Source: Candidatus Ornithospirochaeta stercoripullorum (lineage in GTDB: Bacteria > Spirochaetota > Spirochaetia > Sphaerochaetales > Sphaerochaetaceae). From it: DNA of 38,897 nucleotides. This document shows, in pieces, positions 4,912 through 6,294 of the stretch. How positions within the stretch are numbered: the first letter of the stretch is position 1; each line of letters opens with the position of its first letter. Both the position numbers and the translations under genes were made by a program. Below the pieces are notes generated by a model. It had not been told where the DNA came from and made no database searches. It was given only the letters and a program-made list of their open reading frames with translations. The stretch is taken from NCBI GenBank assembly GCA_017694595.1, contig JADIMT010000003.1, positions 1-38,897 of the forward strand, written 5' to 3'.

Positions 4912-5118
4912 CCTTTATAGCTTTTCAGATATCAGCAAGGCGGGTATCTGGATAATCACCACCTATCAAATTTGAGTTTTCCACATTGATTGTAGCAGTG
5001 GCTATTGCTTTGTCATACTGATAAATATCGACTCTCTGTATACCGTTAGAACATGTTGAGATGCTTCTAGATAGCCTGATGGTTTTAACTTTTCTTGTTC
5101 TAAACGAATCCTTAGATA

Positions 5119-5149
5119 TTGACATAAGCCAACCGGGGGGGGGTATGTT
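5119..5149 (+). promoter_or_regulatory. Candidate phase-variable promoter with G9 tract in the spacer
   Basis: TTGACA (5119-5124), 19-nt spacer containing GGGGGGGGG (5135-5143), TATGTT (5144-5149). Confidence 0.5.
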
Positions 5150-5168
5150 GTATGGAGAGGAGTATGTG

Positions 5169-6221
5169 ATGAAAAAACTTTCAATCATTATTTTGTCTGT
5201 TATTTGTTTGGTTGCTGGTTTTACAGCTTGCACAGCCGGTAATACACTGCCTCCACCACCGAGCATTGACAGGACACCTTATGATGTTGATACAAGTTCA
5301 GAGCTTATCTTAATGCTTTCTGAAAGCGGGCAGGCAAGGCTTACTAATGACATTACTTTGGATGCGCTTCCTCTGGATGCGGATTCACCAGCAGAAACCA
5401 CGATAGACCTCAATGGAAATGAACTCACTTTTGCAACAGAGGATACTATGGTTATCCCTGAAGGAAAGAGCCTGAAGATTGAAAATGGTGATATCATTAC
5501 AACCTTTTCGAGCCCTGATCTTGTTCAAGTTGTTTTTAGAGTTGGCAAGGATAGCAAACTTGAGTTTGATGGCGTGAACTACAAGGCAGCTTCTTCTGGA
5601 ATTCTTCCATCTGATAATGCAGAAGTTGTCATAAATGATTCCGTGCTGGAAATTGCAGGAGCTTGGGGAATCTCTACGAATGCTGGGAATCCTGAAGGAT
5701 ATAGCGTTTCTATTAGAATCACAGATTCAGAAATATCTGAAACAACTAGAACGGGCACGGCAGTCATGCTCAATACCCCAACTGATCTATGGATTGAGAA
5801 TTCTACAATCACTGGTGGCAGGCAAGGCGTAATCTTAAGAGGTGGTAATGGTACTTTCATAAACAGCAGAATCATCTCTCGTGGAGAGTTTGACACAGGG
5901 GATCAATACTATCTAGATGGCACATGGGCTACTGGAAATCGTGTTCCAATGGCTGCTCTTACTGTAGGAAATACATCCACTGATGCTTATAAATATAGCA
6001 CAGTATGCACCATTGACGATGCAACAGAGCTTGTGATGACTGATTCAGGAGAATATGAAGACGGTAGGGCTTTTGAGATTTACGTAGGAAGCCTTGCGAC
6101 AGATTCAGAATTGACAGTCACGCTCTCCGTTCCTTCTGATATCGAGCAATACATTAAAGGTAATAACAGTTGTTGGTGCGGAGCGAATATCACTCTCAAT
6201 GAAGAGAAGCTAACTAAATAA
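5169..6221 (+). CDS. Predicted lipoprotein with right-handed beta-helix-like body
   Basis: Signal peptide MKKLSIIILSVICLVAGFTAC with lipobox-like FTAC; repetitive beta-strand pattern; SD GGAGAGGAG upstream. Confidence 0.75.
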   Translation: MKKLSIIILSVICLVAGFTACTAGNTLPPPPSIDRTPYDVDTSSELILMLSESGQARLTNDITLDALPLDADSPAETTIDLNGNELTFATEDTMVIPEGKSLKIENGDIITTFSSPDLVQVVFRVGKDSKLEFDGVNYKAASSGILPSDNAEVVINDSVLEIAGAWGISTNAGNPEGYSVSIRITDSEISETTRTGTAVMLNTPTDLWIENSTITGGRQGVILRGGNGTFINSRIISRGEFDTGDQYYLDGTWATGNRVPMAALTVGNTSTDAYKYSTVCTIDDATELVMTDSGEYEDGRAFEIYVGSLATDSELTVTLSVPSDIEQYIKGNNSCWCGANITLNEEKLTK

Positions 6222-6261: not shown

Positions 6262-6294
6262 TCGGCAGTCATTGTGGCTGCCGACTTGTTTTTA
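6262..6294 (+). terminator. Intrinsic terminator
   Basis: TCGGCAG-tcattgtgg-CTGCCGA followed by cttgttttt. Confidence 0.75.

Follow-up and report, generated by a model that had tools for sequence, protein, structure and literature searches.

Poly-G tracts that govern promoters of surface-protein genes are best described in Treponema pallidum. Its gene tp0126, which encodes an OmpW homologue, carries poly-G between the -35 and -10 boxes, and the optimal spacing is 17 nt (PMC7864442); tprE/G/J and tprL also have poly-G upstream, short tracts being permissive (PMC7864442). Among 46 poly-G/C tracts in this organism that are at least 8 long, 24 vary between clones; poly-A/T tracts do not (PMC10013896). 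In Neisseria meningitidis, gain or loss of one G in the poly-G of the porA -35/-10 spacer changes transcription (PMC3899988). A set of lipoprotein genes, vlp, follows a related plan in Mycoplasma hyorhinis: a homopolymer in each promoter switches transcription (PMC10502178), and the genes were found by their conserved signal region (PMC12815946); their mature parts are diverse.

The promoter considered here lies in a 38.9-kb stretch of DNA from Candidatus Ornithospirochaeta stercoripullorum that was analysed as a whole and is called the window. On the forward strand, a -35 box, TTGACA (5119-5124), is followed by ten fixed spacer nucleotides, TAAGCCAACC (5125-5134), the last three of them a conserved ACC, then by a G9 tract (5135-5143), the proposed slippage switch (G6 to G12 at equivalent sites of the genus, with a mode of 9), and, immediately 3' of the G run, by a -10-like box, TATGTT (5144-5149). 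The -35/-10 spacer is 19 nt; a Shine-Dalgarno sequence, GGAGAGGAG (5154-5162), precedes the ATG at 5169. (A preliminary description of this DNA had given the positions of TTGACA, G9, TATGTT and ATG, and the 19-nt spacer; all of them agree with the sequence.) The G9 tract is the sole run of more than 6 G or C in the window; shuffled windows contain a mean of 0.20 G8 matches.

As in porA and tp0126, then, a homopolymer of at least 8 separates the -35 and -10 boxes. With tp0126, the likeness extends to phylum, to the position of the poly-G within the spacer, to a surface-protein gene as the target, and to a tract whose length is reported to set the spacing; poly-G tracts upstream of surface-type genes are also what tprE/G/J and tprL offer for comparison. 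The difference is that T. pallidum has single outer-membrane protein genes under such control, whereas the promoters here are nearly identical to one another, dedicated to lipoproteins, and share a conserved ACC-Gn-TAGNCT. The porA promoter shares poly-G in the -35/-10 spacer, but serves one porin gene in an unrelated phylum, and we know of no shared signal-peptide cassette that goes with it. It appears highly probable from comparison of sequences that the G9 tract is a phase-variable switch of a sigma-70-type promoter, one of a genus-wide set dedicated to lipoprotein genes; promoter phase variation of the porA/tp0126 kind, turned here to lipoproteins, is very likely what such a switch would represent. 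The initial suggestion of slippage-prone poly-G within the -35/-10 spacer of a lipoprotein gene thus finds strong support in comparison: in recurrence against zero controls, conserved position, 93% lipoprotein targets, differences in G count, and spacer compensation.

Of 49 genomes of the genus, 35 contain the pattern TTGACA-N(2-20)-G(6+)-TANNNT, at about 238 sites in all, while the reversed pattern, serving as control, has 0 matches among the same 49; matching genomes have from about 1 to 15 such promoters each, dispersed over their contigs. Across the phylum (395 genomes), 96 genomes match, against 10 single matches in all for the control. The consensus of the main class is C-TTGACA-AA-N5-ACC-G9-TAGNCT: a 10-nt part before the G run is the modal length (125 of 238 genus sites), and in this 10-nt class the three bases of the preceding ACC are 100, 98 and 78% conserved. 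To avoid selecting for the pattern, an unselected census was made of every G8+ tract of five genomes (80 distinct tracts). TTGACA, with at most 1 mismatch, stands 3-16 nt upstream of 44 of these (chance, about 6%), at exactly 10 nt in 26 of the 44, and TANNNT follows the tract directly in 37; a lipoprotein gene comes next in 35 of the 44 promoter-type tracts, as against 6 of the 36 long G tracts that lie outside such promoter context. The source genome itself, a 2.04-Mb draft assembly of 113 contigs with 83.5% completeness, contains just 3 G runs of exactly 7 and 11 of 8 or more; five of the latter (on contigs C27, C40, C48, C66, which is the window, and C74) have a perfect TTGACA 10 nt before and a lipoprotein gene just after.

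What these promoters serve was read for 200 distinct genus sites, with a simple lipobox rule deciding what is called a lipoprotein. The downstream gene is readable at 190 of the 200, and encodes a lipoprotein at 177 of the 190 (93%); several of the remaining targets have ordinary signal peptides. Applied to neighbouring genes, the same rule yields 44 lipoproteins in 218 (20%), a figure that is probably inflated by lipoprotein clusters nearby. The resemblance to vlp lies here: lipoprotein genes (177 of 190) with a homopolymer in each promoter and, for the genus set and not for the window gene, a conserved promoter and signal peptide placed before divergent bodies. The vlp homopolymers are poly-A and the vlp genes are clustered in one locus, whereas the tracts here are poly-G, dispersed, and found in a diderm spirochaete. 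By analogy, the genus system would work like vlp without being a member of it; no homology is implied. No report of a genus-wide lipoprotein switch system was found in the literature covered, from which subscription papers were mostly absent.

Is the length of the tract actually variable? The poly-G might instead be a structural element: as rigid, A-like DNA, or as a feature bound by protein, it would set the strength or regulation of the promoter, with a length essentially fixed at about 9. G9 is indeed the commonest length and dominates the genus (128 of 238 sites), and the conserved ACC and TAGNCT flanks could mark a binding site. Variation speaks against a fixed length: of 43 pairs of same-genome promoters that match throughout except for the tract, 24 have unequal numbers of Gs (L050 and L350, for example, have 116 identical flanking nucleotides around G10 and G9, respectively), and leader-related pairs of the same genome differ in 47 of 66, it being understood that G numbers come from metagenome assemblies, in which an error of one is possible. 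Tracts of similar length vary in a related spirochaete as well (PMC10013896). Two genomes, G029 and G014, show a striking dyad about the G run (AGCCTAC-Gn-GTAGGCT). A dyad operator was considered and set aside as not general: CTACC..GGTAG symmetry of the flanks is as frequent in shuffled sequence (mean arm, 1.66 versus 1.62 in shuffles). All told, a structural element of fixed length is an unlikely account of these promoters. (Three close homologues from three species, L014, L016 and L033, have nearly the same promoter with tracts of C6, C8 and C8, differing flanking bases, and different spacers; a same-species copy of the window tract with another G number was looked for in viral contigs, and none was found there.)

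Constrained spacing is another property to be expected of a switch of the porA/tp0126 kind. Across the phylum outside the genus, longer G runs go with fewer other spacer bases (rho -0.42), and the standard deviation of the total spacer is 2.28, compared with 3.32 on shuffling (0 of 5000 shuffles as low), neither figure being corrected for kinship among sites. Compensation of this sort is what a constraint on promoter spacing predicts. The total lies near 17 nt in the phylum (mean 17.7); the mode for the genus is 19.

On the reading that we prefer, the G9 tract as a phase-variable promoter switch, slipped-strand mispairing at replication would add Gs to, or remove them from, positions 5135-5143. 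A changed number of Gs would shift both how far apart the -35 and -10 boxes stand (19 nt with G9) and at what angle to each other, RNA polymerase binding would be altered, and transcription of one envelope lipoprotein gene would go up or down. With promoters of the same design dispersed across the genome, the lipoproteins displayed by any one cell would be a random selection, which might amount to bet-hedging. Which lengths would be ON is a more delicate matter. By the 17-nt rule of tp0126, the window promoter would be strong at G7 and weak at G9; in the genus, the commonest spacer is 19 nt (105 of 238 sites), with only 13 sites at 17 nt, so that either most copies are weak in natural populations or the optimum of this lineage differs. 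To call G9 the OFF state, as had been proposed, is a guess, since its 19-nt spacer is the commonest of the genus: in most cells G9 may be OFF, or this lineage may simply tolerate it. The -10 box of the genus is in most cases TAGNCT, which matches TATAAT only weakly; this, together with a modal spacer of 19 instead of 17, suggests that some other factor may take part.

The preliminary description had also worried about a leader of only about 12 nt. The leader turns out not to be unusual: the distance from G run to ATG in the genus is 21-46 nt (mode 38, with a single outlier at 63), and the 25 nt of the window falls among the 21-27 nt found at 20 of 177 genus sites. A transcription start about 6-8 nt past the -10 box would keep AGGAG within the leader.

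The gene (5169-6221, forward strand) encodes a lipoprotein of 350 aa. Its signal peptide, MKKLSIIILSVICLVAGFTAC (5169-5231), ends in FTAC, with Cys21 as the lipobox cysteine, and an intrinsic terminator is predicted at 6262-6284 (forward strand), so that the transcript probably comprises this gene only. Homologues occur in 19 other genomes of the genus; of roughly 22 whose lipoprotein start can be read, 14 have a run of 6-11 Gs or Cs just before it. The protein is a candidate right-handed beta-helix, to judge from its homologues (alignment A1), an AlphaFold model, and weak structure matches. That fold, first suggested from sequence, is moderately supported. A Pfam search with the window protein itself returned no family, and a PDB sequence search nothing significant; one of 16 relatives matches Pfam Beta_helix (2.4e-5). 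The AlphaFold model, made from the single sequence, is of low quality (pLDDT 50) and shows strands that are short and regular; its structure matches, of which pectate lyases and other beta-helices are the best and which include tailspikes and the adhesin PfbA, have E values of 0.026 or worse. The term "surface antigen" implies an exposure at the cell surface that we infer only from the lipobox.

The source genome also suggests a second place for slippage. The source-genome paralogue on contig C73 (L266) lacks a promoter tract but has C8 at codon 28, directly past the lipobox, and a change of one base there would truncate the protein; the gene on C107 (L268) is alike, and that on C25 (L223) has G8 at codon 25, its reading frame at present ending prematurely. 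Tracts of C8 or G8-9 at codons 21-28 of lipoprotein frames thus occur on C73, C107 and C25 of the source genome (G000), and also in genome G047 (L286, L221). Such in-frame tracts just past the lipobox are likely devices for translational switching, and it seems that two alternative sites serve to bring the family of the window gene under slippage control.

Might the window tract, too, act by frameshifting, either within a longer frame starting at ATG 5061 or within a 113-aa ORF on the minus strand (4925-5266)? Both frames are open across the tract, and the in-frame tracts of other source-genome lipoproteins, the C73 paralogue among them, lend the idea some precedent. It is nevertheless very improbable: the Shine-Dalgarno sequence, signal peptide and lipobox all belong to ATG 5169, homologues begin at the equivalent position and have their tracts upstream of it, and the ORF on the minus strand, which overlaps the promoter, is without a recognised family or signal peptide. 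The 5061 start and the minus-strand ORF were rejected on these grounds. Least credible of all is a chance G run or an assembly artefact, for while assemblies are error-prone at homopolymers and any single site could be chance, chance placement of the motif set is refuted by about 238 sites in 49 genomes against 0 control matches, and by the fixed position and gene class.

How might so many lipoprotein genes have come by the same promoter? At 73 of the 177 lipoprotein sites, a partner in the same genome is at least 80% identical in the DNA between the G run and the codon of the lipobox Cys; in 46 of 58 such pairs the mature parts are less than 35% identical (random pairs, 27%). In three pairs (L276/L230, L398/L399 and L340/L337), identity of 85-100% runs from just upstream of the -35 box to about 100 nt past the G run, and then drops to chance within 20-40 nt. 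At least 29 of the 238 sites lie 150 nt or less from a contig end, where about 1.6% would be expected, as should be the case if cassettes break assemblies. One possibility, which we hold only tentatively and are inclined to doubt, is that a unit of about 120-150 bp, made up of poly-G promoter, leader and signal peptide, acts as a transferable on/off cassette, which recombination copies to the 5' side of lipoprotein bodies that are themselves unrelated; duplication with fast divergence of the bodies could also be the origin. If cassettes are transferable, new surface proteins would join the switching set simply by acquiring one, and shared cassettes suggest just such a route for new genes. In the source genome, the sites on C40, C48 and C74 form one cassette set, with which the window promoter does not pair. 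(Near-identical promoter, leader and signal-peptide DNA that is lost abruptly after the lipobox, before unrelated bodies, is seen in L276/L230, L279/L274, L376/L053, L399/L398 and L340/L337.)

The syphilis organism, a difficult one to study, is the main source of what is known about poly-G promoter switching in spirochaetes. In the present case an entire genus of uncultured spirochaetes from the gut seems to operate a lipoprotein repertoire with one standard switch, and metagenomic reads could directly measure switching in its natural populations. A broad survey of other lineages also looks worthwhile. A scan of contigs from which records of, or near, the source genome were excluded found promoters of the form TTGACA-N-G9+-TANNNT (L099-L215) in many of them (Clostridia, Bacilli, Saccharibacteria, Alphaproteobacteria and others), many from animal guts; by simple rules, most of the readable downstream genes look secreted or membrane-bound. 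In family f25 (G084, G259, G414, G425 and other genomes), G runs of 12-17 nearly fill the -35/-10 spacer, and the -10 boxes are good and TATAAT-like.

Two other settings of the tract dispense with TTGACA. An element, ACCTTTCGGGGGTCAGTTCA or ACCTTCAGGGGGTTAGTTCA, stands immediately before G9-10 and TA at L239, L242, L252, L264 and L282, near contig starts or ends, with lipoprotein genes downstream in at least three cases. The other is a G9-11 tract about 70-79 nt upstream of a conserved secreted protein, "AYQLSPLN...", found at one locus each in G000, G042, G034 and G047 (L243, L256, L281 and L287, respectively): the gene is apparently orthologous, and has its tract in four species.
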